Origin: Nitratireductor sp. XY-223
GTDB taxonomy: Bacteria; Pseudomonadota; Alphaproteobacteria; Rhizobiales; Rhizobiaceae
Reading direction: 5' to 3'
DNA: 64,000 bases
Assembly: GCF_004959855.1 (NCBI RefSeq)
Contig: NZ_SPNT01000006.1
Coordinates: forward strand, 124,001 to 188,000
Shown here: positions 4,471 through 45,930 of the stretch, one piece after another
Layout of the letters: each line of letters starts with the position of its first letter
Position numbering within the stretch: position 1 is the first letter of the stretch
Made by a program: the position numbers and the translations under genes
The notes under the pieces: model-generated
Database searches by the model: none
What the model was told of the DNA's origin: nothing
What the model saw: the letters and a program-made list of their open reading frames with translations, nothing else

Positions 4471-4500
4471 AAAAAAGGCCGGCGCTGGGCGCCGGCCTCA
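4471..4500 (-). terminator. Rho-independent terminator of the TRAP transporter operon
   Basis: Read on the minus strand, an almost perfect hairpin with arms AGGCCGGCGC and GCGCCGGCCT (4476-4498) is followed directly by a run of six T. It lies about 20 bases after the dctM stop codon, in the right orientation to end the dctPQM transcript. Confidence 0.85.
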
Positions 4501-4520
4501 TTTGCCAGGGTATCTCCCGG

Positions 4521-5834
4521 TCAGGCGTTGGGGCCCGGCCTGAGATTTTCAGGCAGGTAGGTTGCAAGGTCGGGAAAGACGATCAACACAAAGACCATCA
4601 GCACCATGATGAGGAACATTGGGATCGCCGCCTTGGCGATGAAGTTCATCTCGTGGTTGGTCATGCCCTGCATGACAAAGAGGTTGAAGCCGATCGGCGG
4701 GGTGATCTGCGCCATTTCGACGACCACGACAATGAAGATGCCGAACCAGATCAGGTCGATGCCGGCCTGGACGACCATCGGTTCGACCACCGCCATGGTC
4801 AGCACCACCGAGGAGATGCCGTCGAGGAAGCAGCCGAGGATGATGTAGAAGACGAGAAGCACCATCAGCAACTCGAAACGGGTTAATTCGAGCGTTGCGA
4901 TGAGATCCGCAAGCCCGCGCGGCAGGCCGGTAAATCCCATGGCGAGCGACAGGAAAGCCGCACCGGCCAGGATCAGCGCGATCATCGCCGATGTCCGCGT
5001 CGCGCCCATCAGGCTTGCCGTAAAGGTGCTCCAGTTGAGAGATCCCTGCGATGCCGCGAGGATCAAACCGCCGATGACGCCGAAGGCGGCGGCCTCGGTC
5101 GCCGTCGCGTAGCCCAGATACATCGATCCGATGACGACGAGGATCAGCAGGATGACCGGTGCCAGGAAACGCGAGTTCCTGACCTTTTCAGCCAAACTCA
5201 GTTTCGGCTCCTCGTTGGGCTGCCATTTCGACGAGATCTTCGAATATATGGCCACGTAGCCCATGAACATGAGCGCCAGGACCAGGCCCGGCAGGATGCC
5301 GGCGAAGAACAGCTTGGTGATGGACTCGTTGATGGTCACGCCATAGACGATCAGCGTCAGCGAGGGCGGTATCATCAGTCCCAGCGTCGCGGCGCCGGTG
5401 AGCGTGCCGATGACCATCGTTTCCGGGTAGTTGCGCTTGCGCAGCTCCGGGATCGACATCTTTCCGACCGTGGTCAGCGTCGCGGCAGACGACCCCGACA
5501 CCGCCGCAAAGACCGTGCAGCCGACGATGTTGGTATGAACGAGGCCGCCCGGCAGGCGCGCCATCCACGGGGCAAGGCCACGGAACATGTCCTCGGACAA
5601 CCGCGTGCGGTAGAGGATCTCGCCCATCCAGATGAACAGCGGCAACGCCGTCAGGGTCCATGACGACGAGCTGGTCCAGATGGTGGTGACCATGACGTCG
5701 CCGACGGGGCGGGAGGTGAACAGTTCCATGCCGACCCAGGCGACGCCCATGAGCGCAAGGCCGACCCAGACGCCAGTGCCAAGCAGCAGGAACAGGACGA
5801 AGAGAAACAGAACGATGACTGAGATATCTTCCAT
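4521..5834 (-). CDS. dctM: TRAP transporter large permease (DctM family)
   Basis: 437 residues from the ATG at 5834; this start sits 4 bases after the stop of the small permease gene and gives the normal N-terminus MEDISVIVLFLFVLF. About twelve hydrophobic segments span the protein. Family features include the glycine-rich GCTVFAAVSGSSAATLTTVGKM stretch, the GTLTGAATLGLMIPPSLTLIVYG block and the late ITPPIGFNLFVMQG block. DctM forms the sodium-coupled elevator part of tripartite ATP-independent periplasmic transporters and works with the small subunit and the binding protein encoded upstream on the same strand. Substrate unknown; TRAP systems usually carry organic acids or amino-acid-like compounds. 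A strong terminator follows. Confidence 0.95.
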   Translation of the reverse strand: MEDISVIVLFLFVLFLLLGTGVWVGLALMGVAWVGMELFTSRPVGDVMVTTIWTSSSSWTLTALPLFIWMGEILYRTRLSEDMFRGLAPWMARLPGGLVHTNIVGCTVFAAVSGSSAATLTTVGKMSIPELRKRNYPETMVIGTLTGAATLGLMIPPSLTLIVYGVTINESITKLFFAGILPGLVLALMFMGYVAIYSKISSKWQPNEEPKLSLAEKVRNSRFLAPVILLILVVIGSMYLGYATATEAAAFGVIGGLILAASQGSLNWSTFTASLMGATRTSAMIALILAGAAFLSLAMGFTGLPRGLADLIATLELTRFELLMVLLVFYIILGCFLDGISSVVLTMAVVEPMVVQAGIDLIWFGIFIVVVVEMAQITPPIGFNLFVMQGMTNHEMNFIAKAAIPMFLIMVLMVFVLIVFPDLATYLPENLRPGPNA

Positions 5835-5838
5835 TGTC

Positions 5839-6372
5839 CTACTCCCCGTGGCTCTGCTCGACCAGATCGGTCTCGATGCGATGGTCGCCGGCAAACAGCA
5901 CATGGATCAGATGGTCGGTCAGCGCGATCGCCAGGATCACAGCGCCGATGACCATCGACAATTGCGGAATCCACAAGGGCGAAGCGTCCTGCCCCTGGCT
6001 GACCTCGTTGAACTTCCAGGACCAGTAGACGAAGCGGTAGGCGTAATAGGAGAAATACCAGGCGATCGCCGCGCCGATGCCGAAGCACCAGATTTCGAGG
6101 ATCCTGCGCACGCCATCCGGAACCGCGTTCAACACGATCGAAACGCGGATATGGGCACCGCGGTGCAGGGCATGGGCAAAAGCGAAAAACGAGGCCGCGG
6201 CCATGCAGTATCCCGCATAGTCCGGCGCGCCGGCGAACACTTCTCCCGTCCAGCGTGCAAGCATCTGAATGACAATCAGCAGCAAAATGGCGATGAGAAA
6301 AAACGCCGCAAACACACCGGACGCCAGATAGATGAAGTCGAGGCCGTTGCGCAATTGTCTGAGTGCGGCCAT
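5839..6372 (-). CDS. dctQ: TRAP transporter small permease (DctQ family)
   Basis: 177 residues with four transmembrane helices, the DctQ topology: FAAFFLIAILLLIVIQML, a second around the Ala-rich YCMAAASFFAFAHAL, the third around LEIWCFGIGAAIAWYF and the fourth MVIGAVILAIALTDHLI. The family motif follows helix 2 (RGAHIRVSIVL). It is separated by 4 bases from dctM and by 120 bases, including a hairpin, from the upstream dctP gene. Its role is to hold the large permease in the membrane and help dock the binding protein. Confidence 0.93.
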   Translation of the reverse strand: MAALRQLRNGLDFIYLASGVFAAFFLIAILLLIVIQMLARWTGEVFAGAPDYAGYCMAAASFFAFAHALHRGAHIRVSIVLNAVPDGVRRILEIWCFGIGAAIAWYFSYYAYRFVYWSWKFNEVSQGQDASPLWIPQLSMVIGAVILAIALTDHLIHVLFAGDHRIETDLVEQSHGE

Positions 6373-6426
6373 TTACCCCTCCATATTTTCGATTACGGCG
6401 CCGTTCCTCCTAAACGATGCCCGGGT

Positions 6427-6452
6427 GCCCGCCGCGCAGAAACGCGACGGGC
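6427..6452 (-). other. Stem-loop between dctP and dctQ
   Basis: Arms GCCCGCCGCG and CGCGACGGGC (one C-A mismatch) around a six-base loop, in the 120-base gap after the dctP stop. No T tract follows on the minus strand. Hairpins at this place in binding-protein operons commonly protect the upstream message from 3' exonucleases, so that the binding protein is made in excess; that role is inferred here. Confidence 0.55.
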
Positions 6453-6492
6453 AATGTCAATCATCGAACGGCTGCAACAGCAGCGGCCGTGC

Positions 6493-7482
6493 CTACTGCA
6501 TGGAATTGTATGCATCGATGATGGCCTTGCCGTCATCGCCGGCATTCTCAAGCCACTCGGCCGCCATGATCGCGCCGATCTCCTTGAGTTCGGCCTGCAG
6601 GGCCTCGCCTGCCGGTCCGACCGTCATGCCGCCGGCGCGAAGCCCGTTCAGTGTGAACTGGGTGTATTCGACAGCACGCCAGGTGCCGGCATATTCGGCG
6701 AGTTCTGCGCAGCCCTTGATGATGTTTTTCTGGGCCTCGTCAACGCCGTTCCATACGTCCTTGTTGATCATGACGTAGTTGCGCGGCAGCCAGGCGTCGA
6801 CCTCATAAAAATGCGTCAGGCTCTCCCAGACCTTGCGGTCGTAGCCGGTCGAACCCGACGAGACCATGGCATCGGCAACGCCGGTGGCAAAGGCCTGGCT
6901 GATTTCGGCGGCTTCGATCTGAACAGGCAGCATGCCGGTCAGTTCGGCAAGCCGTGCCGTGGCATTGTTGTAGGAGCGGAATTTGATGCCTTCCATGTCG
7001 GCAACCGCCGTCACTTCCTGTTTGAAGTAAAGCCCCTGCGGCGGCCAGGGAACCGAATACAGAAGAACAAGATTCTGCTCGTCGAGAATCTTCTCCATGG
7101 TCGGCTTGGCGGCTTTCCAGAGCTTGCCGGCATCTTCAAACGAGGTGGCCAGGAACGGCACCGAGTCGACGCCGAATACGGCGTTTTCGTTCTGGTGACC
7201 GGAGAGCAGCCGTTCGCCGATCGGCGCCTGGCCTGTCTGGATCGCCCGCTTGATGTCGGCGCCCTTGAACAGCGAGCCCGACGGATGGGTGACGACTTCG
7301 ATTTCGCCGCCAGTGCCGGTCGTGATGCACTGGGCGAACGCCGCCGCCGTCGCCGAGTGGAAGTTCGTCGCCGAATAGGCGAGCGGCATGTCCCATTTCT
7401 CCGCGAAGGCGGCGCCGGCGGTGACCGCCAGTGCTGCCGAGATCATCAGCGTTGCCGTGTGTTTTGCGATTGATGCTTTCAT
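6493..7482 (-). CDS. dctP: TRAP transporter solute-binding protein (DctP family)
   Basis: 329 residues, with a clear signal peptide (MKASIAKH then TLMISAALAVTAGAAFA, cleavage after about residue 27). The mature protein is a periplasmic DctP receptor: early KWDMPLAY strand, then THPSGSLFKGADIKRAIQTGQAPIGE, the region where the family checks for its substrate, and the RSYNNATARLAELTG block whose Arg usually binds the carboxylate of the ligand. SSGSTGYDRKVWE follows. First gene of the dctPQM operon; a Shine-Dalgarno-like GGAGGACC lies just upstream of the ATG. The neighbouring FAD oxidoreductase, on the same strand 33 bases upstream, probably belongs to the same transcript. The ligand is unknown; an amino acid or 2-oxo acid would fit the neighbours. 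Confidence 0.93.
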   Translation of the reverse strand: MKASIAKHTATLMISAALAVTAGAAFAEKWDMPLAYSATNFHSATAAAFAQCITTGTGGEIEVVTHPSGSLFKGADIKRAIQTGQAPIGERLLSGHQNENAVFGVDSVPFLATSFEDAGKLWKAAKPTMEKILDEQNLVLLYSVPWPPQGLYFKQEVTAVADMEGIKFRSYNNATARLAELTGMLPVQIEAAEISQAFATGVADAMVSSGSTGYDRKVWESLTHFYEVDAWLPRNYVMINKDVWNGVDEAQKNIIKGCAELAEYAGTWRAVEYTQFTLNGLRAGGMTVGPAGEALQAELKEIGAIMAAEWLENAGDDGKAIIDAYNSMQ

Positions 7483-7515
7483 TTGGTCCTCCCAGTTTGA
7501 AGCACTCGATGCTGG

Positions 7516-8757
7516 TTAAAATCGGTTCGGGTTGTAGGCTGCCAGGTCGATGTTCGGCCTGTCGCCGGTTATGAGGCCGGCAACCAGCCGGCCCGTCTTG
7601 GGCCCACCCGTCAGCCCAATATGATGATGCCCGAAGGCAGTATACACGCCGCTTTGCCCGATTTCGCCGATGAGCGGCAGGCTGTCCGTCGGCGCCGGGC
7701 GGTGACCGAGCCATTCTTCGGTATCGGCGTAGGTCAGGTCCGGGAATGTCTGTTCGACCGTCTTGCGCAGCAGCTTGAGCGGCGCCCTTGACGGTCCGGC
7801 GTCGAGGCCGCCGAATTCGACGATCCCGGCGCAGCGCAAACCGGCTTCCATGGGCGTTGCCACAAATTTTCCCGCCGCCACCATGGTCGGCGACTTGGGC
7901 GCCGATACGGGCTCCTTGAAGACGATGTGATAGCCCCGCTCGGACTCCAGCGGGACATTCAGGCCGAGCTTGGCGGCAAGCGGTTTCGACCAGATGCCGG
8001 CGCTCAGAACCACGTGGTCGCAATCGAAGCGCCCCTGATCGGTCAGAACCGCCTGAACGGTGCCGCCAACCAGGTCGAAATCGGTTACCTCGGCGGTGAC
8101 CACGCGCCCACCCATCTCTGCGAAGGTCTCGGCCAGGGCCGCAACATAGCCGCCGGGATCGGTGATGTAGCCGTGATCGCGCATCACGGCGAGCAGTCCG
8201 ACCGCCGGCCCGAATGCCGGCTCGTACTCGTGGACGGCTTCGCCTTCGAGGATGTCCGGTTCGAAGCCGGCGACCCGCCGCAATTGCCAGGTATAGGCAT
8301 CGGCTTCGAAAGCCGCGCGGTCCGCATAGGCAAAACTGTAATCCGACGGGACCATGTAGCGGCTTGCGCCGCCGCCTTCGGAAAGTGCTTTATGCTGTTC
8401 GACGCTGTCGGCAACGATCGGGGTCAAGCCCTTGGAAATACGGCGCGTATCGTTGTCGTTCGCGTGGCTCAGATAGCGCAGTAGCCAGGGCGCGAGTTTC
8501 GGCAGGTAGGACCAGCGCATGAACAGCGGGAAACCCGGATCGAGCAGCAGCTTCGGGCCCTTGAGAACTAGGCCCGGCGCCGTCACCGGCACGACCGAGC
8601 AGGATGCCAGGACACCGGCGTTGCCGAAGGAGGTTCCCTGTCCGGGAGCGTTCTTGTCGATGAGTGTCACCTTCGCGCCCGCGCGGGTCAGCCAGATCGC
8701 TGCAGAGACCCCGACGATCCCGGCTCCAACGACGACGATGTGTTTCGCAACGCTCAT
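7516..8757 (-). CDS. FAD-dependent amino acid oxidoreductase (DadA-like, DAO family)
   Basis: 413 residues from the ATG at 8757, chosen because MSVAKHIVVVGAGIVGVSAA puts the FAD-binding GxGxxG (residues 11-16) at the proper distance from the N-terminus. The length, the LIDKNAPGQGTSFGNAG stretch and the C-terminal GEIGQSGVYTAFGHHHIGLTGGPKTGRL block are those of the D-amino-acid dehydrogenase (DadA) group, which oxidises D-amino acids to 2-oxo acids and passes electrons to the respiratory chain. It lies 33 bases upstream of the TRAP genes on the same strand, and divergent from a LysR gene, so the likely picture is uptake by TRAP then oxidation here. Substrate not proven; sarcosine-oxidase-like or hydroxyproline-type enzymes share the fold. 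Confidence 0.85.
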   Translation of the reverse strand: MSVAKHIVVVGAGIVGVSAAIWLTRAGAKVTLIDKNAPGQGTSFGNAGVLASCSVVPVTAPGLVLKGPKLLLDPGFPLFMRWSYLPKLAPWLLRYLSHANDNDTRRISKGLTPIVADSVEQHKALSEGGGASRYMVPSDYSFAYADRAAFEADAYTWQLRRVAGFEPDILEGEAVHEYEPAFGPAVGLLAVMRDHGYITDPGGYVAALAETFAEMGGRVVTAEVTDFDLVGGTVQAVLTDQGRFDCDHVVLSAGIWSKPLAAKLGLNVPLESERGYHIVFKEPVSAPKSPTMVAAGKFVATPMEAGLRCAGIVEFGGLDAGPSRAPLKLLRKTVEQTFPDLTYADTEEWLGHRPAPTDSLPLIGEIGQSGVYTAFGHHHIGLTGGPKTGRLVAGLITGDRPNIDLAAYNPNRF

Positions 8758-8837
8758 TTTGTATCCGTCAATGCCGCGTGAGGTGCGCCCGTCGCACCGG
8801 CTGCCGCCGGACCGCGCCGGCCCGACGGGCAAAACCC

Positions 8838-8852
8838 GCAAGCTCAGCTTGC
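8838..8852. promoter_or_regulatory. Perfect palindrome in the divergent promoter region
   Basis: GCAAGCT-C-AGCTTGC, two perfect 7-base arms around one base, between the FAD oxidoreductase (leftward) and the LysR gene (rightward). Its position, 80 bases upstream of the oxidoreductase start, suits an operator for the adjacent LysR protein or another regulator. It is not a plain T-N11-A LysR box, so the binding protein is uncertain. Confidence 0.45.
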
Positions 8853-8920
8853 CAGTCGCAGGTCATCATTTCAAATACTAACATCTGTACAACTCATAAC
8901 TTTAGGTGATACATGGACAC

Positions 8921-9826
8921 ATGTCGCTTCGCTTCCGCCAGCTGCAGGCCTTCCACGCCATCGTCGAAACCGGCACGGTGACCGGCGCGGCGGAACAGCT
9001 CGGCATATCGCAGCCCGGCATCTCCAATCTCCTGTCGCAGCTTGAGCGGCAGACGCGCCTTAAGCTTTTCGAGCGGTCGAAAGGCCGGCTGGTGCCGACG
9101 CCGGAGGCCGGCGTCCTCTTCCAGGAAGTGGATACGGTCGTTCGCGGCCTCGATCACGTCGCGCAGGCGGTGTCCGATCTGCAGAACAAGCAGGCGGGCC
9201 AGTTGCAGGTCGCCTCGCCGCACGCATTGTCCTTCGGTTTCATGCCGAAGCTGATCGCGCGGTTCGCTAAGGACCGCCCCGACATGTCGATCTCTTTTCA
9301 GTCGCAGTATTCGACGAAGATCCAGGAATGGGTGCTTGCCGGTCTTTTCGAAATAGGCGTGTGCGAGATGCCGCTGATCTATGATGCTTTCGACAGCCAC
9401 GTCGTGCAGGTGGAGACCCTGCTCGCGATGCCCGAGGACAGTCCGCTGGCGCGTCACGAGGTACTGACGCCCGATCTTCTCGTTGGCGAGCCGTTCATCG
9501 TCATGGGGCCGGACCACATGACCCATCGGCGGACGCGCGAGGTGTTTCACACGGCCGGCGTGCCGTGGCGCACAAAGGTGCACACGCATCTTTTCAAGAA
9601 TGTCCTCAGCTTCGTCCAGGAGGGCATGGGCGTCGCGCTTCTCGATCCGTTCACGCTGCATTTCGACTTCGAGGGCGGCTTTGTCACCCGGCCGTTCAGA
9701 CCGGCGGTTCTGCTCGACCTTGCCGTCATCACGTCGCGAGCCCGGCCGCTGTCGGCGCTCGGCCGCCAGTTTCTGGACATGCTGCTCGATGAGCTCCGGC
9801 TCCATACCGTTCCGCAAGGCGGGTAG
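8921..9826 (+). CDS. LysR family transcriptional regulator
   Basis: 301 residues from the ATG at 8921 (a GTG at 8906 in frame would add five residues). The winged helix-turn-helix occupies residues 2-60 (LRFRQLQAFHAIVETGTVTGAAEQLGISQPG...), followed by a periplasmic-binding-protein-like effector domain. Divergently transcribed from the DadA-like/TRAP genes over about 160 bases, the classical layout for a LysR regulator of the neighbouring pathway; the effector would be the substrate or an intermediate. Convergent with the thiamine-diphosphate enzyme gene, with 47 bases between the stops. Confidence 0.93.
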   Translation: MSLRFRQLQAFHAIVETGTVTGAAEQLGISQPGISNLLSQLERQTRLKLFERSKGRLVPTPEAGVLFQEVDTVVRGLDHVAQAVSDLQNKQAGQLQVASPHALSFGFMPKLIARFAKDRPDMSISFQSQYSTKIQEWVLAGLFEIGVCEMPLIYDAFDSHVVQVETLLAMPEDSPLARHEVLTPDLLVGEPFIVMGPDHMTHRRTREVFHTAGVPWRTKVHTHLFKNVLSFVQEGMGVALLDPFTLHFDFEGGFVTRPFRPAVLLDLAVITSRARPLSALGRQFLDMLLDELRLHTVPQGG

Positions 9827-9873
9827 CAAGGGACGTCCAAGAAGCTGGTCGGCAAAGCGCTGCATGGCTGCGG

Positions 9874-11565
9874 TCATCCCATCCAGCGCCGCACCGGCGC
9901 GTTGGCTTCCTCGAGCGGCTGGCAGATGACATCGACCAGCGACGGGCCGTCGTGGTTCACCGCTTCCGTCAGAACACGCTCCAGGTCCTGCGGATCCTCG
10001 ACCCGCCAGGATTTGACGCCGTAGGCGGCGGCGACCGCGGCCTGGTCCGTGCGGCTGAAATCGACATTGTAGTAGCGGGCGTCCGTATCGGCGTGCTGGC
10101 TGGCCTTGATCCAGCCGAAATTCGAGTTGGAAAAGACAATGTAGGTGATCGGCGCACGGGCGCGGCACACGGTCTCGAGCTCGCCGCAGGTGAAGCCGAA
10201 GGAGCCGTCGCCCATCATGGCGACGATCTTGCTGGAGGGACGGCCGTACCAGGCGCCGAGGGCCGCCGAGAGCGAGTACCCCAAAGCGCCGTGGGCACGG
10301 TTGGTGATGAAGTAGCGGCCCTCCTTCGGCTGGCGGTAGTAGGCGGAGTAATAGGGGCAACTGGTGCCGGGATCGGACAGCACCGTGGCGTCCTCGGGCA
10401 GGACCTTCATCATCGCGTCGATGACCCGCTCGGGGCGCATCGGCCGCTCGCCGCTTTGCGCAAGCCGGTCGAAGATCGCGAATTTGCGGCGCTTGATATC
10501 GGCGATCGCCTCGGCGCCGCCGAAGGTGTCGGATCCCTGGCCGCGGCGGTCGAGTTCCGCGTTGACGGCGGCGAGCGACAGCTTCAGATCGCCGCACACG
10601 CCCACTTCCGGCTCGTAATTGGCGCCGATGACCATCGGGTCGCTGTCGAAATGGACGATGCGGGCGCCAAGCTTCGGCGCTTCCCAGCGGGAGGTGGTGG
10701 TTGAGCCGGCACGGCAGCCCATGAAGACCACCAGATCGGCGGCTTCCATCAGTTCCCAGGTCTCGTCCGTGCCGCCGTTCGAGCCGACCACGCCGAGGCA
10801 GTTCGGGTGGGTGTCGGCAAGCGAGCCCTGGCCTGAGATCGAGGTGGCAACAGGTATGTCGAGGCGCCTCGCCAGGCGGTCGAGCTCGTCCATTGCGCCG
10901 GCGATAACGACACCGCCGCCGCAGACGATGAGCGGGTTCTTTGCCGAAAGGATCGCGTCGATGGCCGCTTCCGCAGCCCCGGGCTCTGGCGCTGCGCGGT
11001 AGGCCGGATAGGTCTTCAGCTTGCCGTCGGCCCACACGTCCTCCGGGTCGACCGCGTCGTACTGGATATCGTAGGGCAGGCCGAGATGGGCGGCGCCCGG
11101 CCGCCCGGTCGTCATGGCCCGGAAGGCGGCGCGCACCATGCGCGGGATATGATCGGCGCGGCGGATGACGGTGTTCCACTTGGTGAGCGGGCGCATCAGC
11201 GCTTCCTGGTCCAGCTCCGTCAGCGGGTACTTGCCGTAAGAGGCGACGGAGATGTCCGTGGTTATGCCGAGCACGGCGTAGGAGGATTCGCTTGCCTCGA
11301 TGAGGCCTGGGATAATGTAGGTCGCGCCGCCGCCGGACGGCCCCTCGCACACGCCGACGCGCCCCGTCACCCGCGAATAGGCGTCGGCCATATAGGTGGC
11401 CGAACGCTCGTCGCGCGTCAGCACATGGTTGATGCCGTGGTCGAGCCGGTAAAGCGCGTCGTAGAAGGGCAGGGTGGTGTCGCCGCAGAGTCCGAATATG
11501 TGCTGAACGCCGTGCGCCTCCAGCATGCGCACCATGGCCTCGGCGCCGTTGAGGGTGTTCGTCAC
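9874..11565 (-). CDS. Thiamine diphosphate-dependent enzyme (acetolactate synthase-like family)
   Basis: 563 residues from a GTG at 11565, preferred over in-frame upstream starts because AAGGAC lies 10 bases before it and the N-terminus VTNTLNGAEAMVRMLEAHGV is that of the family. Three domains: N-terminal pyrimidine domain with the activating Glu in TRDERSATYMADAYSR, central domain (LIVCGGGVVIAGAMDELDRL), and C-terminal PP domain with the metal-binding GDGSFGF...NSNFG motif. The family decarboxylates 2-oxo acids or joins the active aldehyde to an acceptor; which of these applies cannot be told. The Asp/Glu-rich stretches typical of true IlvB are not preserved, so a catabolic lyase or decarboxylase is more likely than branched-chain biosynthesis. 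Divergent from a GntR regulator. Confidence 0.85.
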   Translation of the reverse strand: MTNTLNGAEAMVRMLEAHGVQHIFGLCGDTTLPFYDALYRLDHGINHVLTRDERSATYMADAYSRVTGRVGVCEGPSGGGATYIIPGLIEASESSYAVLGITTDISVASYGKYPLTELDQEALMRPLTKWNTVIRRADHIPRMVRAAFRAMTTGRPGAAHLGLPYDIQYDAVDPEDVWADGKLKTYPAYRAAPEPGAAEAAIDAILSAKNPLIVCGGGVVIAGAMDELDRLARRLDIPVATSISGQGSLADTHPNCLGVVGSNGGTDETWELMEAADLVVFMGCRAGSTTTSRWEAPKLGARIVHFDSDPMVIGANYEPEVGVCGDLKLSLAAVNAELDRRGQGSDTFGGAEAIADIKRRKFAIFDRLAQSGERPMRPERVIDAMMKVLPEDATVLSDPGTSCPYYSAYYRQPKEGRYFITNRAHGALGYSLSAALGAWYGRPSSKIVAMMGDGSFGFTCGELETVCRARAPITYIVFSNSNFGWIKASQHADTDARYYNVDFSRTDQAAVAAAYGVKSWRVEDPQDLERVLTEAVNHDGPSLVDVICQPLEEANAPVRRWMG

Positions 11566-11624
11566 GCTTTGATTGTCCTTCTTCGCCTGGGCAGCAGGAT
11601 TTCGCAAACTCGGCCCTTGCCGAA

Positions 11625-11665
11625 CTTCATACAGAATTGTATACAGCATCTTATGCAGAAGTGAA
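11625..11665. promoter_or_regulatory. Candidate GntR/FCD operator region
   Basis: The 180-base gap between the thiamine-diphosphate enzyme gene (leftward) and the GntR gene (rightward) holds TTGTATACAG (11637-11646), with the palindrome TGTATACA at 11638-11645, flanked by CTTCATACAG and CTTATGCAGAAG, which are partly inverted copies. Short AT-rich palindromes of this kind are the usual targets of FCD-type GntR regulators. The gene beside it encodes one. Confidence 0.55.
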
Positions 11666-11744
11666 GACAAAAAATTTGCGGCGGTTCAAAAAATGTGTCA
11701 TCTCATGAAGGTCCGGGCGGATGATGATCAGTGAGGTGTTGGAC

Positions 11745-12443
11745 ATGAGCAAAGCGAGCAGCAGCGTCGACCGGGTCTATGACCGGGTCAGGCACATGGC
11801 TGCGAACTTTGAGTTCAAGCCCGACGAGCGCATCAACGAGAGCGCGCTGTCCTTGAAGCTCGGCGCCAGCCGCACGCCGCTGCGGGAGGCCCTGAACCGG
11901 CTCGTCGCGGAGGGATTCCTTACCTTCCAGAACGGCCGCGGGTTCTTCTGCCGCTCGCTCAGTCCCGAAAAGATCGTTGACCTCTACGAGGCGCGCCAGG
12001 CGATCGAGTGCGAAGCGCTTCGGCGGTCCGTCACGCGGGCGTCGGACGAGGAGATTGCCGCCGTCGTCGCCTATCTCGACGAGACGGAACCGCGCTACAA
12101 CACCAGCAAATCGACCGTGGAGGTCCTTGAAATGGACGAGGATTTCCACATCCGGCTGGCCGAGCTTTCGAAGAACACCGAACTAGTGCGGCTGTTGCGC
12201 AACATCAATGACCGGATCCGCTATGTCCGGCTGGTCGACCTGAAGATGATCCTCGCCAAGAAACAGATCGCCAAAAACAAGGGCGCGAAGCTATCCGCGC
12301 ACAGGGTCATTCTCAATGCGCTGGCGGCGCGCGACGGGGAAGGCGCCGTCGCCGCGATGCGCAGCCACATCGAACGCAGGCGCGAGGAGGCGACCGAGGC
12401 CGTCCGTATCGCCTATTCGCAGCTTTATGTCCCGGCGGACTGA
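11745..12443 (+). CDS. GntR family regulator with FCD effector domain
   Basis: 232 residues from the ATG at 11745, preceded by GTGAGG eight bases upstream; an in-frame ATG at 11721 has no such site. The winged helix covers about residues 10-75 (INESALSLKLGASRTPLREALNRLVAEGFL). The C-terminal all-helical FCD domain has the metal or ligand residues of the family: the Asp/His of EDFHIRLAEL and the two late His residues in SAHRVILNAL and RSHIERRR. Regulators of this type repress sugar-acid, hydroxy-acid and amino-acid pathways. It is divergent from the thiamine-diphosphate enzyme and 35 bases upstream of the racemase-like gene, and so probably controls both. Confidence 0.92.
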   Translation: MSKASSSVDRVYDRVRHMAANFEFKPDERINESALSLKLGASRTPLREALNRLVAEGFLTFQNGRGFFCRSLSPEKIVDLYEARQAIECEALRRSVTRASDEEIAAVVAYLDETEPRYNTSKSTVEVLEMDEDFHIRLAELSKNTELVRLLRNINDRIRYVRLVDLKMILAKKQIAKNKGAKLSAHRVILNALAARDGEGAVAAMRSHIERRREEATEAVRIAYSQLYVPAD

Positions 12444-12478
12444 TCCGCATTTAAGGGAAACCCCGAGGGAGAATATGC

Positions 12479-13234
12479 ATGTCCGTCGAATTCGGTGGAA
12501 AAACGGTCTATGGCGCCAATGTCGGCATCATGATGCTGGAAACGCAGTTTCCGCGCATCCATGGCGATATCGCCAACGCCTACACGTGGCCGTTCCCGGT
12601 GCAGTACCGGATCGTGCGCGGCGCAACGCCCGACAAGGTGGTGCGCAACAATCCGCTGGAACTGGTCGATCACTTTATCGACGCGGCCAGGGACCTGGTC
12701 GCCTCCGGCTGCGACGGGCTGACCACCAATTGCGGCTTTCTCGCCCTCATCCAGGACAGGGTTTCCGAGGCGGTGCCTGTGCCGGTTGCGACCTCGTCCC
12801 TGATGCAGATCCCGCTGGTCCGGCAGATGCTGCCGCGCGGCAAACGCGTCGGCGTGATCACCATATCGAAGACCAATCTGTCGGAAGCGCATCTGCGCGC
12901 CGCCAATGCGCCGCTCGACACGCCGATTGTCGGAACCGACAACGGCCGCGCCTTTACCCACGGCATCCTCGACGACCAGCCGAGCATCGACTTCGCCGCC
13001 TGCCGGCTCGACCTGCTCGATGCGGCGCGCGAACTTGTTACCACCCATGACGATATCGGCGCCATCGTGCTCGAATGCACGAACATGACGCCCTATGCGC
13101 TCGATATCCGCAAGCTGACCGGTCTTCCGGTCTTTTCGATCTACAGTTTCGTGCGCTGGTTCCACCAGGGGCTGGTGCCGGACCGGTTCGAGTTGCGCCT
13201 CGACGATCCGATGCTGGAACTGGCGGGGCGTTAA
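12479..13234 (+). CDS. Aspartate/glutamate/hydantoin racemase family protein
   Basis: 251 residues, one domain pair. Two catalytic Cys are visible in the expected places: GLTTNCGFLAL (about residue 83) and IVLECTNMTPYA (about residue 199). This pair performs proton removal and return in the Asp/Glu racemase superfamily, which also includes hydantoin racemase, maleate isomerase and arylmalonate decarboxylase. Follows the GntR gene by 35 bases on the same strand, so the two probably form an operon. Together with the DadA-like dehydrogenase and TRAP transporter it suggests handling of a chiral amino acid or related acid, but the reaction is not determined by sequence. Confidence 0.85.
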   Translation: MSVEFGGKTVYGANVGIMMLETQFPRIHGDIANAYTWPFPVQYRIVRGATPDKVVRNNPLELVDHFIDAARDLVASGCDGLTTNCGFLALIQDRVSEAVPVPVATSSLMQIPLVRQMLPRGKRVGVITISKTNLSEAHLRAANAPLDTPIVGTDNGRAFTHGILDDQPSIDFAACRLDLLDAARELVTTHDDIGAIVLECTNMTPYALDIRKLTGLPVFSIYSFVRWFHQGLVPDRFELRLDDPMLELAGR

Positions 13235-13240
13235 CACGCG

Positions 13241-14212
13241 TCAGCCCAGCTTGCCACCCATTTCCTCGTCGATGTGGATGCGGATGATCTCGTCGATCGA
13301 CCCGTCGGCGACAAAGCCCAGTTTCGTTGCCCTTTCGGCGTTGAAATCGCGCGGCCAGCCGCTGACCAGGCGGTCGACCAGTTCGTCGGGCGCCTCGCGG
13401 ATGAGCGCCGACCGGTTTTCGCCCGCGACACGGTCGAGCGCGGCGATCATTTCAGCGACGGTGACGGACACGCCCGGCATGGTCAGCGCGCGGCGCGGGC
13501 CGACGGCCTGTGTGTCGATCGTCGCCGCGTGAACGAGGAAGCCGGCGGCCGTGCGCGGGCTGACCAACCAGTGGCGCACGTCGCGCGAAACCGGCAGGAC
13601 GGCCTCCTTGCCGGCGAGCGGCTCGCGCAGGATGTTGGAAAAGAACCCGGAGGCCGCCTTGTTGGGCCGGCCTGGCCGCACCACCACGGTCGGCAGGCGA
13701 ATGGCGAGGCCGTCGAAGAAGCCCTTGCGGCTGTAATCCGCCAACAGCAATTCGCAACAGGCCTTCTGCGTGCCGTAGGAGGACAGCGGTGCGCTGAGGA
13801 ACTCGTCGCCGATCTTTTCGGGAAACGGCGCGCCGAAAACGGCAATCGACGAACTGAAGACCAGACGCGGCATGTATTGCAGCGCACGCACCGCCTCGAA
13901 CAGGCGCTGGGTACCCTCAAGGTTGATGCGGTATCCCTTGTCGAAATCTGTTTCGGCCTCGCCGGAGACGACCGCCGCGAGGTGGAAAATGACGTCGGGC
14001 CTGTCCGCCACCAGGCGCTCGGCCTCGCCCGGGACGGACAGATCGCCGGCCCCGGTTTCGACCGGAAACCGCGCATCGGGCAATTCGGGCGGGACGATAT
14101 CATATAGCCTCAAAGCATCGATGGCCTGGCCGCCGAGTTCAGCGTCGGCACAGAGCCGTGCAACGAACTTCTGTCCGACCATGCCGGCGGCGCCGATGAT
14201 GAGGATCTTCAT
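13241..14212 (-). CDS. denD: NAD-dependent epimerase/dehydratase family protein, D-erythronate dehydrogenase-like
   Basis: 323 residues, extended short-chain dehydrogenase. Starts directly with the NAD-binding motif MKILIIGAAGMVGQ. The catalytic YxxxK is YGTQK (within SSYGTQKACCELLL), and the central SSSIAVFG supplies the Ser/Thr. Length and the RLPTVVVRPGRPNKAASGFFSNI block match the D-erythronate dehydrogenase (DenD) group, which oxidises C2 of four-carbon aldonates to 2-oxo acids. Convergent with the racemase-like gene (6 bases between stops). Assignment to DenD is by similarity of sequence pattern; true denD operons carry a kinase (DenK/OtnK) and OtnC/OtnI, none of which is present, so the substrate may differ. 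Confidence 0.78.
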   Translation of the reverse strand: MKILIIGAAGMVGQKFVARLCADAELGGQAIDALRLYDIVPPELPDARFPVETGAGDLSVPGEAERLVADRPDVIFHLAAVVSGEAETDFDKGYRINLEGTQRLFEAVRALQYMPRLVFSSSIAVFGAPFPEKIGDEFLSAPLSSYGTQKACCELLLADYSRKGFFDGLAIRLPTVVVRPGRPNKAASGFFSNILREPLAGKEAVLPVSRDVRHWLVSPRTAAGFLVHAATIDTQAVGPRRALTMPGVSVTVAEMIAALDRVAGENRSALIREAPDELVDRLVSGWPRDFNAERATKLGFVADGSIDEIIRIHIDEEMGGKLG

Positions 14213-29550: not shown

Positions 29551-31018
29551 AAGTCCGCGCGCCTCGGCGACGGATCTGCCGGTCGCCCGCAAGCCGGGCG
29601 CGATATTCGCATTCGTAAGCTGCGCGCTGTGCCTGGCCGTCGTGTGGGCGACGCTGAGCGATCGCGATGCGGCGCATTGGGCCTCGGCAATCCTGTTCGC
29701 GCTCTTTTGCGCCCTCGGCATTGGCCGCTTCGGCATGCGCGAACGGGTGCTGATGTTCTTTGCACTTCTGGTGACCGGCACGGCCTTCTTAAAACTCGGC
29801 AATGACGCCGTTGAGCCGGTCGTGGAGGACATGTCGCGCGCCGCCTATCTCGGCACCTTCATGATGCTGATTACGACAATGCGGGAAGGCGCCTACAGTT
29901 CACGCTCGGTGCTGGAGATCGGACGATATGTGACCAACCAGCCGCCCGGCCGGCGCTATTTCGCCCTCCATATCGGCGGTCATTTCATTGGAACGCTTCT
30001 CAATTTCGGCGCGGTCAGCCTGCTCGGACCGCTGGTCCTGCGCGGGGTGCGGGCCGCAGAGGCGGAGGGCAGTCCGCCGGAACTGTCGGAAATCCGGTTG
30101 CGGCGGCAGATCAGTGCCCTCAGCCGCGGCTTTTCCTGGTTCAATATCTGGGCGCCGACCGCGATTGCACAAGCGGTGGTGCTGACAACCGTGCCGGGCT
30201 CCCGCGCCGGAACCATCGCGCTGATCGGCATCACGATCGCCTTCATCCTGTTGTGGGTTGGGTGGGCGGAGGACCGCGTCACCGGCCACCGGGCGCGAAT
30301 GGGTCTTGCGGAAAAGGGATTTCGGGTCGAACCTTCCGCTGTTCCGCCGTTTCCGTTCCGCGCCCTCACGCGGTTTTTGACCGTGGCGGTCGGGCTGCTG
30401 ACGCTTGCCTGGATCGTTTATCGACTAAGCGCCATTCCGTTCGTTTCAGCGATCATGATCTCGGCGCTGCCCCTGACCGTCCTGTGGATGATCGCGCAGT
30501 CGGCGTCCGCCGGCGCCATGGACGCCGGTCGCCTGTTGCGCAAGGTGTGGCAGCTTCCGCGCATCGCCATCCCGTCGGGGAGCCCGGAAGCCGCCACGCT
30601 CGGGCTTGCCGGCTATATCGGCATACTGGGCGCGACCCTGGTCGACCGCAGCTGGTTTGCCGGCTTGCTCAACGGGGCACATCTGACGCCGGCAGCGGTC
30701 TATATCACCGTGTCCGGCCTCATTCCGCTCGCTTCCTGCATCGGTCTGCCGCCGATGATGCTGGTGACCTTCCTCGGCGGGCTGCTGGTTTCGATCCCCC
30801 AGCTGGGGCTCGATCCGACGATGCTCGGCCTGTCGTTGCTTGCCGGTTGGGCGCTCAACCTGACCGGCTCGCCGTTCGGTGCCACATCGCTGCTCTTGTC
30901 GCGGGTGGTCGGTATTTCGGGCATGACGCACGCATGGCGCTGGAACGGTATCTTCACGGTGCTGTCGTGGGTTGTCGCGGCAATCGTCATCCTGACGGCG
31001 AGCCGGCTGGGCGCCTGA
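29540..31018 (+). CDS. Polytopic membrane protein, ion-transporter-like, family uncertain
   Basis: 492 residues from a TTG at 29540, which overlaps the end of the gamma-glutamyltransferase gene by 11 bases; no ATG or GTG start upstream is possible and later ones cut the first helices. Ten or more hydrophobic segments. Glycine- and proline-rich loops such as GFSWFNIWAPTAIAQAVV, ISGLIPLASCIGLPPMMLV-like and GWALNLTGSPFGATSLLLSRVVG resemble the hairpin loops of the ion transporter (IT) superfamily, but I cannot name the family. Translational coupling suggests that it moves a substrate or product of the transferase. Confidence 0.7.
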   Translation: MATESPRASATDLPVARKPGAIFAFVSCALCLAVVWATLSDRDAAHWASAILFALFCALGIGRFGMRERVLMFFALLVTGTAFLKLGNDAVEPVVEDMSRAAYLGTFMMLITTMREGAYSSRSVLEIGRYVTNQPPGRRYFALHIGGHFIGTLLNFGAVSLLGPLVLRGVRAAEAEGSPPELSEIRLRRQISALSRGFSWFNIWAPTAIAQAVVLTTVPGSRAGTIALIGITIAFILLWVGWAEDRVTGHRARMGLAEKGFRVEPSAVPPFPFRALTRFLTVAVGLLTLAWIVYRLSAIPFVSAIMISALPLTVLWMIAQSASAGAMDAGRLLRKVWQLPRIAIPSGSPEAATLGLAGYIGILGATLVDRSWFAGLLNGAHLTPAAVYITVSGLIPLASCIGLPPMMLVTFLGGLLVSIPQLGLDPTMLGLSLLAGWALNLTGSPFGATSLLLSRVVGISGMTHAWRWNGIFTVLSWVVAAIVILTASRLGA

Positions 31019-31176
31019 ACGATCCGCGGCCGGACCGTCAGATTCGGGCCGCAATCGCCCGGTATCGAGCGTCTCGACCGCGGCGGTCCGGCATTGTCCA
31101 GCCGGCATTGTGTTGAAACGTATCGATGCTAGATTGTCGCAGACATTGAACCACTTAGAGGCCGCGCCGCGCTTTC

Positions 31177-32280
31177 ATGCTCCGCTTTATCCGCACCGAA
31201 ATAGCCCTGATCCTGGGCTTCGTTCTCACGGCCCTTGCCTACGGACCGCTCGCCCCGCTATTCGGCGAAACGTTCACGCCGGGGTTGTTCGCGGTACTGT
31301 TCGCGGTGCTCTTCTGCACGATGCTGCTTTTGTCATTCTCCGCCGTTCGGCACGCGGACCACCTGGCTGAACTGCTTGGCGAGCCTTACGGCACGCTGAT
31401 ACTGACCATCGCGGTAATCACCATCGAGGTGGCGCTGATCTCGGCGATCATGCTGGGCGGTCAGGCACAGCCCACCCTTGCGCGCGATACCATGATGGCG
31501 GTCCTGATGATCGTCATGAACGGTGTCGTCGGCCTCGTGCTCCTGGTCGGCGCGTTCAAGCACACCGAACAGGAGTTCAACCTGCGCGGTGCCAGCGCCT
31601 TTCTGACCGTCCTCGTCACGCTCGCGACGATGACGCTGATATTGCCTAATTTCACCGAGTCGACACCGGATCCGAGCCTCAGCCGGATCCAGTCGGAGTG
31701 GTTCGCCTTCATCACCATCGTCCTTTACGTGACGTTCCTTGCCATCCAGACGGTCCGCCACCGGTCGTATTTCGTGCAGCCGGGCGACGAGGACGGGCAG
31801 GGCGGACATCACCATGTGGCGGGCGGCGGCACGGTGCCCTACCACGCGGTGCTCCTGATCCTGACGCTTGTTCCCGCCGTGCTCCTGTCGAAAAAGCTCG
31901 CCGTGCTTGTCGACTTCGGCATCGGAACGTGGCAGCTGCCGGCCGCTCTTGGCGGCATCATCATCGCCGCGCTGGTGCTGGCGCCGGAGGCGCTTGCCGC
32001 GCTTCACGCCGCGCGCCAGAACTACCTGCAACGCGCCGTCAATATCTGTCTCGGCTCGGCGCTGGCGACCATCGGCCTCACCGTTCCAGCGGTGCTCGCC
32101 ATCTCGATCTTCTTCGACAAGGAAATCCAGCTCGGGGTCGGCAATACCGACATGACGTTGCTGATCTTGACCATGTTCGTCAGCGCGCTGACCTTCGGCG
32201 GCACGCGCACCAACATGCTGCAGGGCGCCGTGCACCTCGTTATTTTCGTCGTCTATATCGTGCTGATCTTCAATCCCTAG
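31177..32280 (+). CDS. Cation/proton antiporter, ChaA-like (Ca2+:cation antiporter family)
   Basis: 367 residues, eleven or so transmembrane segments. Two alpha-repeats with acidic centres are visible: ITIEVALISAIMLGG and ALVLAPEALAALHAARQNYLQRAVNICLGSALATIGLT, as in ChaA, YfkE and CAX. A His-rich cytoplasmic loop (GQGGHHHVAGGG) divides the halves. The family exchanges Ca2+ or Na+/K+ for protons. Monocistronic; 158 bases separate it from the gene before and 142 bases from cydA. Confidence 0.88.
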   Translation: MLRFIRTEIALILGFVLTALAYGPLAPLFGETFTPGLFAVLFAVLFCTMLLLSFSAVRHADHLAELLGEPYGTLILTIAVITIEVALISAIMLGGQAQPTLARDTMMAVLMIVMNGVVGLVLLVGAFKHTEQEFNLRGASAFLTVLVTLATMTLILPNFTESTPDPSLSRIQSEWFAFITIVLYVTFLAIQTVRHRSYFVQPGDEDGQGGHHHVAGGGTVPYHAVLLILTLVPAVLLSKKLAVLVDFGIGTWQLPAALGGIIIAALVLAPEALAALHAARQNYLQRAVNICLGSALATIGLTVPAVLAISIFFDKEIQLGVGNTDMTLLILTMFVSALTFGGTRTNMLQGAVHLVIFVVYIVLIFNP

Positions 32281-32303
32281 CGGAAGCGGCGGGAAAGACC
32301 TAC

Positions 32304-32351
32304 CAAAGCGTGTGCGGCATAATTGCACGCTACAATAATTTACACGCTTTG
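32304..32351 (+). promoter_or_regulatory. Inverted repeat upstream of cydA
   Basis: CAAAGCGTGT (32304-32313) and ACACGCTTTG (32342-32351) are perfect 10-base inverted arms 28 bases apart; between them a further GCACGC (32325-32330) repeats the core. The AT-rich interval CTACAATAATT also lies inside. The site is 70-120 bases before the oxidase start and is probably where its expression is controlled. No FNR-like TTGAT-N4-ATCAA box is present. Confidence 0.5.
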
Positions 32352-32422
32352 CGATTGAATTTGTTCGGGCCATGCCGATAATGGCCGCCACAGTGACCCA
32401 TGCCTGAAGCGGAGTGCCTGCG

Positions 32423-33832
32423 ATGCTTGAATCGATGGATCCCGTCCTGCTTGCCCGCATTCAATTCGCGTTCACGGTCTCCTTCCACATCATCTTTCCC
32501 GCCACCTCGATCGGGCTCGCCAGTTTCCTCGCCTTTGTGCAGTGGCGCTGGCTGAGAACACGCGAGGAAGTCTATCTCTCGCTCTTCGATTACTGGATCA
32601 AACCCTTTGCCGTCGTCTTCGGCATGGGCGTCGTGTCCGGCCTGATGATGAGCTACGAGTTCGGCACCAACTGGAGCGTCTTCAGCGACAAGACCGGGCC
32701 GGTGCTGGGACCGCTGATCGGCTACGAGGTGATGACGGCGTTCTTCATCGAGGCCGGATTTCTCGGCGTCATGCTGTTCGGGCGAGACAAGGTGGGGCCG
32801 AGGCTGCATTTCATGGCCACCTTCCTGGTGGCGGCCGGCACTCTGATGTCGGCCTTCTGGATATTGAGCGTCAACAGCTGGATGCAGACACCGGCCGGCT
32901 ACAGCATGAACGAAGCCGGACAGTTCGTTCCCGAGAACTGGCTCAAGGTCATTTTCAATCCTTCGTTCCCGTACCGCTTCGTGCACATGGCGTTCGCCGC
33001 CTACCTGACGACCGCGCTGGTGGTCGGCGCCACCGGTGCCTATCACCTGCTGCGCGACCGCCAGAACCAGACCGCCCGTACGATGTTCTCCATGGCGATG
33101 TGGTTCGTCGCCATCCTGGCACCGCTGCAGATCCTTGCCGGCGACCAGCACGGGCTGAATACCTATGAGCACCAGCCCGCGAAGATCGCTGCGCTGGAAG
33201 GGCATTTCGATAGCCAAGCCGCGGCGCCGTTCTATGTGGTCGGCTGGCCGGACGTCGAAGCGGGCAAAATGGAGTATGCCATTGCCATTCCCTATCTCGG
33301 CTCCTGGATCCTGACCCATGAATTCACCGCGGAGATCACCGGTCTCGATGCTTTCCCGCGCGAAGACTGGCCCAATGTGCACATTGTCTTTTGGTCGTTC
33401 CGCATCATGGTCGGTCTTGGCTTGTTGTTTTTGGGGCTGGGCGTTTGGAGCCTGGTGCAGCGCTATCGCGGCCGCCTCTATGACAGTCCCTGGCTGGCAC
33501 GGTTTGCGCTGCTGCTCGGACCGACCGGATACGTTGCCGTCCTCAGCGGCTGGGTGACGACCGAGGTCGGGCGCCAGCCCTACACGGTCTACGGACTGTT
33601 GCGGACCGCGGAGTCCGCTTCGCCGGTTGCCACGCCCGCCGTTGCCACGTCGCTGGCGGCGATTGTGGTGATCTACCTGTTCATCTTCGGTCTCGGCACC
33701 TACTACACGGTGCGGTTGCTGGCGAAAGTGCCGCCCGACAGTCCCGAGCCGCAGACCCGTGGGCTGCTCGATCAGGGCGGCGCGCGTGCGGTGCGGATCC
33801 TTCGTCTGCTGATACCGGGCAGGGGGGCCTAG
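32423..33832 (+). CDS. cydA: Cyanide-insensitive quinol oxidase subunit I (bd family, CioA/CydA)
   Basis: 469 residues from the ATG at 32423 with GGAG eight bases before. Haem-b and haem-d ligands are in place: His near the N-terminus (FTVSFHIIFPATSIG), the Glu of YEVMTAFFIEAGFLG, His/Met in the RFVHMAFAAYL block and GWVTTEVGRQPYTVYG towards the end, where quinol oxidation and proton loading occur. The Q-loop after GDQHG is short, which marks the CIO group rather than E. coli bd-I with its long loop. It reduces O2 to water in the inner membrane and tolerates cyanide and sulfide. Forms an operon with cydB and a small DUF2474 gene. Confidence 0.95.
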   Translation: MLESMDPVLLARIQFAFTVSFHIIFPATSIGLASFLAFVQWRWLRTREEVYLSLFDYWIKPFAVVFGMGVVSGLMMSYEFGTNWSVFSDKTGPVLGPLIGYEVMTAFFIEAGFLGVMLFGRDKVGPRLHFMATFLVAAGTLMSAFWILSVNSWMQTPAGYSMNEAGQFVPENWLKVIFNPSFPYRFVHMAFAAYLTTALVVGATGAYHLLRDRQNQTARTMFSMAMWFVAILAPLQILAGDQHGLNTYEHQPAKIAALEGHFDSQAAAPFYVVGWPDVEAGKMEYAIAIPYLGSWILTHEFTAEITGLDAFPREDWPNVHIVFWSFRIMVGLGLLFLGLGVWSLVQRYRGRLYDSPWLARFALLLGPTGYVAVLSGWVTTEVGRQPYTVYGLLRTAESASPVATPAVATSLAAIVVIYLFIFGLGTYYTVRLLAKVPPDSPEPQTRGLLDQGGARAVRILRLLIPGRGA

Positions 33833-33834
33833 AA

Positions 33835-45618: not shown

Positions 45619-45930
45619 TTCGTTCCCTCCGGCCCCGAAGGGAGGCATTGACCAGTGTTGTCCAAAATCTCCCGATGGAACAAACAATAGCTCAAAACGA
45701 GATATGAACAAAACTGATGTGAACTTGAGACCCAACTATAGCGAACAATCAGAACGGCTGGCTTATTGAATGTCGGCTATGGGTCATCTTCGGTAATTGA
45801 AGAATTATCTGGCTGCTCGGATTGCGGCACCATCCGAGCGGCATGGAAGGGCTCTTAGCCGTCATTCGGCTTGATCGGCCAGGCGCGTAATGAGGGTCAG
45901 CCTTCAAGATTCGGATGTCGGCTCCCCAAT
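45619..45930. other. Intergenic stretch holding the flank shared with the 40.7 kb remnant and a hairpin
   Basis: About 310 bases with no gene. 45847-45930 is the flank that is duplicated near 40.75 kb. A hairpin with 11-base arms, one G-T pair and a nine-base loop (GCTGCTCGGAT/ATCCGAGCGGC) lies at 45812-45842 and could be a terminator for the quinone reductase, with a weak T-containing tail on the minus strand. The rest is AT-rich and includes the upstream region of the cyclase gene (45619-45780). Confidence 0.6.

Follow-up and report, generated by a model that had tools for sequence, protein, structure and literature searches.

What does a bacterium degrade with a tripartite ATP-independent periplasmic (TRAP) transporter, a DadA-like dehydrogenase, a thiamine-diphosphate (ThDP) enzyme and a racemase-family protein encoded side by side? 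Such a locus lies in a 64,000-nucleotide stretch of Nitratireductor sp. XY-223 (contig NZ_SPNT01000006.1, positions 124,001 to 188,000; hereafter the window, whose numbering is used throughout), where an initial annotation described a catabolic island with no known substrate. That description was too pessimistic, as the solute receptor of the transporter points to pyroglutamate-like ligands. We find that the genes for DctPQM, the DadA-like protein, the ThDP enzyme, an FCD-type GntR regulator and the Asp/Glu-racemase superfamily protein (Race), joined less often by a LysR regulator, form a conserved module. They may serve to break down a small amino acid, cyclic or acidic, that resembles pyroglutamate in shape, by a GntR-controlled racemization-oxidation-ThDP route, a reading to which we give about an even chance.

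A conserved gene set

A scan of genome contigs with ThDP peptides, which may leave out records very near the window, gave 59 loci, mostly from Rhodobacterales, with others from Pseudovibrio, Cohaesibacter and Hoeflea; the nearest is that of Hoeflea poritis (ThDP 94% identical). The ThDP gene is present in all of them by construction. Homologs were counted by tblastn, at no less than 45% identity and 60 bits, because the gene caller is crude and called some antisense open reading frames (ORFs; for example cluster 14). By this measure Race is found in 52 of the 59 loci, GntR in 44, DadA and DctP in 38 each, DctM in 35, DctQ in 23 and LysR in 19; a muconate-lactonizing enzyme (MLE)-type gene of the enolase superfamily is present in 16, a gene for a 312-residue protein in 14, one for a ProC-family reductase in 8, and a homolog of DenD (D-erythronate dehydrogenase family) in 1. 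Counts at any identity (GntR 52, DadA 44, DctQ 36, LysR 21 and DenD 3 of 59) include weak paralogs and were not used. ThDP, Race, GntR, DadA and DctP are present together in 33 of the 59 loci and in 25 of the 43 that span at least 20 kb, the other 16 being shorter. The comparison of conserved neighbors thus bears out the claim that these genes belong together.

The same picture is obtained from the racemase side. Among 199 genomes sampled from the order, that of the window included, 65 have a Race match at E ≤ 0.001. We took 14 loci anchored on Race from other genomes of the order; they are among the best matches, and several come from the same genus. DadA is present in 13 (12 at 53% identity or more, one at 39%), DctP in 11, ThDP in 7 (at least 59%), the MLE-type gene in 5 (at least 53%) and DenD in none. 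On the counts from both sets, co-location recurs across lineages and excludes DenD. The set is present in many marine bacteria and is probably switched on together. The features of the locus are as follows.

4475 to 4499, minus strand: terminator-like stem-loop with a T tail after dctM (11 pairs, 9 of them G-C)
4521 to 5837, minus strand: DctM, TRAP large permease subunit (PF06808)
5839 to 6372, minus strand: DctQ, TRAP small permease subunit (PF04290)
6493 to 7482, minus strand: DctP, solute receptor nearest to pyroglutamate-binding receptors (PF03480; PDB and Foldseek matches)
7516 to 8763, minus strand: DadA-like FAD-dependent oxidoreductase (DAO, PF01266)
8921 to 9826, plus strand: LysR regulator, divergent from the DadA-like gene (Pfam, NCBIfam)
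9874 to 11565, minus strand: ThDP enzyme, acetolactate-synthase-like, of a distinct subfamily, 563 residues (ThDP N, M and C domains; probable start)
11635 to 11646, minus strand: palindromic site CTGTATACAATT, probable FCD-GntR operator (conserved near the ThDP start)
11721 to 12443, plus strand: FCD-type GntR regulator (GntR and FCD domains)
12479 to 13234, plus strand: Race, with Cys85 and Cys200 (PF01177; PRK07475 at 314 bits, cut-off 231)
13241 to 14212, minus strand: DenD homolog, judged to lie outside the module (NF043036 at 380.6 bits, cut-off 325)

All nine genes between 4521 and 14212 are open, and Pfam and NCBIfam concur with the families named in the initial annotation. The gaps between them range from 1 to 157 bp with the ThDP ORF counted at its long form. 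As listed, this ORF starts at TTG 11670; translation more probably begins at GTG 11565, judging from the sequence, since 42 of the 59 homologs match the ORF only from residue 23 or later and GTG 11565 is preceded by a Shine-Dalgarno-like GAAGGA. The palindrome then falls in the intergenic region. Terminator-like sites in the region are not above chance in number (9 found against 7.4 expected in shuffles), so the stem after dctM says little by itself.

The receptor and its solute

Three PDB entries stand out as sequence relatives of DctP, 6wgm (375 bits, 57% identity), 2pfz (270 bits, 42%) and 2pfy (236 bits, 37%), the next match scoring 61 bits. A Foldseek search with its AlphaFold2 model (mean pLDDT 82) returns the same entries at ranks 1-3 with target-normalized TM values of 0.95-0.96. 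Their titles all state pyroglutamate or pyroglutamic acid binding; 2pfz and 2pfy are DctP6 and DctP7 of Bordetella pertussis, and 6wgm comes from a marine metagenome. For DctP7, excerpts of PMC13274462 and PMC11668362 give a dissociation constant of 0.3 µM. Residues N40, E90, W146, Q149, R169, Y171, T175, S209, T212, G213 and D215 are common to DctP and all three structures in alignments compared by eye. R169 is invariant in 24 of 24 aligned rows and, from its position, would be the carboxylate-binding arginine conserved among TRAP receptors (PMC3454389, in excerpt).

In both sequence and fold, DctP is therefore nearer to DctP6, DctP7 and 6wgm than to other TRAP receptors, and the next DctP-like protein of the window genome is just 26% identical to it. 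Since these nearest receptors are titled for pyroglutamate, malate is an unlikely ligand and a pyroglutamate-like compound is the likely one; DctP does not group with malate-binding receptors. The Bordetella genes have an oxoprolinase gene in their vicinity, according to an excerpt of PMC13274462, whereas none is found among the nine window proteins.

A palindrome near the start of the ThDP gene

The region around the start of the ThDP match, from 350 bp upstream to 120 bp inside (470 bp), contains TGTATACA in 54 of the 59 loci, at 55 sites with the majority sequence CTGTATACAATT; L056, L066, L079, L093 and L095 lack it there. Of 1180 windows of 470 bp drawn at random from these loci, some of which may cover the site, 50 contain it. 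The window genome (6.19 Mb) has a single occurrence of TGTATACAATT, at this site, and none of the backwards control. There is likewise one copy of the palindrome in the whole window, where allowing two mismatches gives three matches against 0.67 expected, including 6504-6515 at the 3' end of dctP and another far off at 23056.

Elsewhere in the 59 loci (1,148,147 bases in total) there are 19 further copies. Two of these sit 46 and 64 bp upstream of a Race gene that is turned round (L088 and L096), and L081 has two, one of them 74 bp upstream of DadA. Race or DadA, when in a transcription unit of its own, can thus bear the palindrome of the ThDP gene. Ten copies are found two each in L055, L070, L071, L072 and L076; in L070, L071 and L076 one of the pair precedes a called ORF by 55-57 bp. 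These ORFs fall in a single cluster, whose L070 member is of the MmgE/PrpD family, and the other L070 copy is near a TctC-family gene. The five remaining copies (L041, L056, L059, L063 and L091) have no explanation. Judged by its placement, the palindrome is probably an FCD-GntR operator that unites ThDP, Race and, in some relatives, DadA in one regulon.

The three enzymes

A sequence search of the PDB at E ≤ 0.001 gives no relative of Race. Cys85 and Cys200 are invariant in 29 of 29 aligned members and, by analogy, would be the catalytic pair. Four distant plasmid clusters, of Agrobacterium, Sinorhizobium, Bosea and Paracoccus, resemble the module in that a DAO-family gene comes directly after Race, but they differ from it in having two further dehydrogenase-type subunits ((2Fe-2S) and FAD/NAD) and other transporters; their Race proteins are 38-45% identical to that of the window. 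In the Paracoccus denitrificans cluster a ThDP enzyme and an aldehyde dehydrogenase are encoded too, a set that matches what would be expected for racemization, oxidation, decarboxylation and aldehyde oxidation. This cluster holds UbiD and UbiX genes as well, which the route proposed below does not explain.

The other two enzymes are related to, yet distinct from, characterized families. The best NCBIfam match of the DadA-like protein, to D-amino-acid dehydrogenase PRK00711, scores 177.1 bits, below the cut-off of 383, and the protein is accordingly termed DadA-like only; it falls below the cut-off of every family among the 25 of its 50 matches that were listed. The same is true of the ThDP protein for the 25 that were listed of its 58 matches, the best being acetolactate synthase (370 bits, cut-off 538). 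Two assignments of the latter were considered and rejected, as a 5-guanidino-2-oxopentanoate (arginine) decarboxylase (286 bits against a cut-off of 500) and as an Xsc-like sulfoacetaldehyde acetyltransferase (259.5 against 620). Xsc had been suggested by one Ruegeria locus, which has pta and a sulfate-exporter-like gene alongside, an arrangement unique among eleven plasmid loci, two of them unannotated. Mean column identity is 74% for ThDP (22 rows), 71% for DadA, 65% for DctP and 59% for Race, figures that come from differing rows, with ThDP as the anchor.

In Pseudomonas aeruginosa, D-arginine is oxidized by the flavin dehydrogenase DauA, after which an AruI-type ThDP decarboxylase acts. 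The window module would follow the same logic, inverting the chiral center, forming a 2-oxo acid with a DadA-like enzyme and decarboxylating it with a ThDP enzyme, but it differs in its TRAP uptake, its two-cysteine racemase-family protein and its different ThDP subfamily.

The DenD homolog and other neighbors

The initial annotation extended the island over 4471-14212. The conserved module accounts for this extent up to the end of the racemase gene at 13234, where it stops, whereas the DenD homolog beyond is not conserved with the rest. An ortholog near Race is seen only in Hoeflea poritis among the 59 loci (L039, 87% identical and above the NF043036 cut-off) and in none of the 14 other relatives; L062 and L069 match at 32-34% identity only, and the L069 match is of an epimerase family. 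D-erythronate catabolism involves DenD, OtnI, OtnK and OtnC, and the window protein passes the NF043036 cut-off. Unlike in a denD operon, it is not clustered with the 3-oxo-tetronate kinase OtnK (548.6 bits, cut-off 350) and the 3-oxo-tetronate 4-phosphate decarboxylase OtnC (293 bits, cut-off 250), which lie side by side on another contig of the window genome (L143 4996-6905). No match to OtnI was found among the seven L143 ORFs scanned. An ORF adjoining the pair is weakly like N-acyl homoserine lactonases, below the cut-offs shown.

Because OtnK and OtnC are encoded on that other contig, a role in D-erythronate catabolism is the economical view of the DenD homolog, which is probably merely a neighbor of the module. 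On its poor conservation and the placement of the otn genes, we reject it as a pathway member. The chain put forward in the initial annotation ran from uptake through isomerization, oxidation and a ThDP step to this dehydrogenase as the last enzyme. The order up to the ThDP step is plausible. As for the ending, the gene lies just 6 bp from the racemase gene and is kept near Race in H. poritis, but it is on the opposite strand with no copy of the palindrome beside it; together with the 1/59 and 0/14 loci, the equivalog match to NF043036 and the location, on another contig, of the genes for the kinase and decarboxylase that it would supply, this makes the full chain highly improbable.

The MLE-type enzyme occurs in or near the module in 18 of 70 loci (L084 12681-13853 and L042 11701-12840 among them), and the window genome carries a homolog (48%) away from the module. 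The L084 enzyme is closest to structures 3i6t and 3i6e (650 and 571 bits). The optional enolase-superfamily protein was rejected as a cis-3-hydroxyproline dehydratase, for which it reaches 122 bits where the cut-off is 500; its score for the muconate-cycloisomerase family is higher, at 224, though likewise below cut-off. The 312-residue protein, membrane-protein-like by eye, is encoded near dctM in 16 of 70 loci (such as L048 13732-14670); the L048 protein, directly after dctM, has no NCBIfam or Pfam match. A Pfam scan covering a sample of the flanks, with 30 ORFs from ten relatives, nearly all of them beside the module, found no common substrate-indicating gene. Displacement of the ThDP gene in L118, L121 and L111 was considered and rejected; other ThDP proteins, 27-35% identical, are encoded nearby, two L118 neighbors belong to the PfkB and indigoidine-synthase-A families and are uninformative, and the scanned neighbors in L121 and L109 are mainly transporter genes. 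Farther along the window, AT skew is strongly negative at 30001-34000 and 44001-46000 (-0.23 and -0.17), where there is also a stretch of low G+C (0.553).

Proposed route and alternatives

In the route that we propose, DctP would capture a pyroglutamate-like solute for import by DctQM. The two-cysteine racemase-family protein, found beside the MLE-type enzyme in some relatives, would invert the alpha carbon, and the DadA-like flavoprotein would oxidize one stereoisomer to an imine or a 2-oxo acid. The ThDP enzyme could then decarboxylate the 2-oxo acid to an aldehyde or ligate it to another 2-oxo acid, with subsequent steps left to enzymes encoded elsewhere. Via CTGTATACAATT, the FCD-GntR protein would control, and probably repress, both its own gntR-race unit and the ThDP gene that diverges from it, and LysR would control dadA-dctPQM. 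What the sequences establish is gene content, the limits of the module, its recurrent co-location, the palindrome, the closest relatives of the receptor and the two cysteines; the ligand, each reaction and its place in the order, GntR binding and repression and the function of LysR are inferred.

Several observations weigh against this route. ThDP homologs 84 and 80% identical adjoin a GntR gene and genes for a tripartite tricarboxylate transporter, and the annotation up to 10 kb away lists neither Race nor DadA nor a TRAP gene. Ruegeria pomeroyi keeps a GntR-ThDP-Race set, and there DadA and TRAP genes are missing from the annotation up to 15 kb away; the ThDP step is therefore separable from DadA. 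Conversely, L113, L114 and L123, all of one genus, retain Race-DadA-DctPQM without a ThDP gene. The Race family is not bound to the route either, because a second Race of the window genome (58% identical) has no DadA or DctP homolog in its 20-kb surroundings (L109). The Race model (pLDDT 89.5) is 11-18% identical to arylmalonate decarboxylase and to hydantoin, allantoin, aspartate and glutamate racemases, and is no nearer to any one of them. A lactam is not chemically plausible as a DadA substrate, and we know of no DadA-type enzyme that oxidizes one such as pyroglutamate. As pyroglutamate is a lactam, the route would need a further, ring-opening step unless the true solute is an imino or acidic amino acid. 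The nine window proteins include no aldehyde dehydrogenase, deaminase or oxoprolinase, and as many promoter-like matches are expected by chance (2.0) as were found (2), including the one that overlaps the palindrome.

One alternative is plain scavenging of pyroglutamate. The transporter would import 5-oxoproline, and an oxoprolinase encoded elsewhere would hydrolyze it to glutamate. Race and DadA would merely handle D-isomers, and a side product would be the substrate of the ThDP enzyme. The titles of the DctP relatives agree with this, and, also to the detriment of our route, the window genome has one PxpA and six Hydantoinase_B matches, two of the latter in frames of 1247 and 1228 residues, the size of a fused oxoprolinase. 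No PxpABC- or OplAH-type oxoprolinase is found among the nine window proteins, however, the flanks of relatives being covered by a sample, and the recurrent ThDP, Race and DadA genes are left unexplained. Moreover, L144 of the window genome (5142-11822) holds a second TRAP operon (DctP homolog, DctQ and DctM) directly followed by one of these long frames, a hydantoinase/oxoprolinase-type ORF of 1243 residues (8091-11822) whose best NCBIfam match, to caprolactamase alpha, is below cut-off. The genome thus already possesses a TRAP-hydantoinase unit apart from the module. We regard scavenging as the least probable of the three alternatives weighed here.

The other two would change the solute and are both unlikely, to the same degree and slightly less so than scavenging. 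In one, the solute is an acidic amino acid, or a glutamate substituted at position 4, that can close to a pyroglutamate-like ring, with DadA giving a 2-oxo dicarboxylate for decarboxylation by the ThDP enzyme. This would suit the tricarboxylate-type transporters adjoining close ThDP homologs, the aconitase-, phosphoenolpyruvate-mutase- and RraA-family genes near ThDP homologs of about 59% identity, and the TAXI receptor in Leisingera loci, one TAXI-class receptor being glutamate-specific according to an excerpt of PMC11574862; all of this is evidence of gene neighborhood. Alternatively, the solute could be an imino acid of the proline or hydroxyproline type, a class that DAO-family enzymes oxidize. 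DadA would then yield a pyrroline-2-carboxylate, and the ThDP enzyme would decarboxylate the open 2-oxo form of this compound toward 4-aminobutanal. A ProC-family reductase gene adjoins Race in 8 of the 59 loci (L042, L045, L046, L047, L049, L050, L060 and L094), and the L060 protein scores 240 bits for TIGR00112 (cut-off 197). These loci come from few lineages, though (Pseudovibrio, Cohaesibacter and one metagenome-assembled genome), and ProC may be an ordinary biosynthetic gene; the sole ProC match of the window genome is located elsewhere, and the NCBIfam D-proline dehydrogenase scores 61 bits against a cut-off of 600. The hydroxyproline route runs through HypO, HypD and α-ketoglutarate semialdehyde dehydrogenase; a DapA-like deaminase and an aldehyde dehydrogenase are absent among the nine window proteins, relatives having been sampled only.

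Implications

Searches of open-licence PubMed Central papers, several of them aimed at related topics, listed no description of the cluster, and the terms sought are absent from the main text of a transporter study of R. pomeroyi (PMC10130141). More tentatively than the route itself, we suggest that the module could represent an undescribed pathway for pyroglutamate-like cyclic amino acids, widespread in marine Alphaproteobacteria, in which the product of racemization and flavin-dependent oxidation passes to a ThDP decarboxylase or carboligase dedicated to it, so that the ATP-dependent oxoprolinase is bypassed; on present evidence this is possible but rather doubtful. The module's occurrence in Rhodobacterales, Pseudovibrio, Cohaesibacter and Hoeflea-like bacteria would provide genes and a probable operator for tracking carbon and nitrogen flow. 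The proposed route would also assign functions to the PRK07475 racemase family, to a ThDP subfamily and to the 3i6t/3i6e group of the enolase superfamily.

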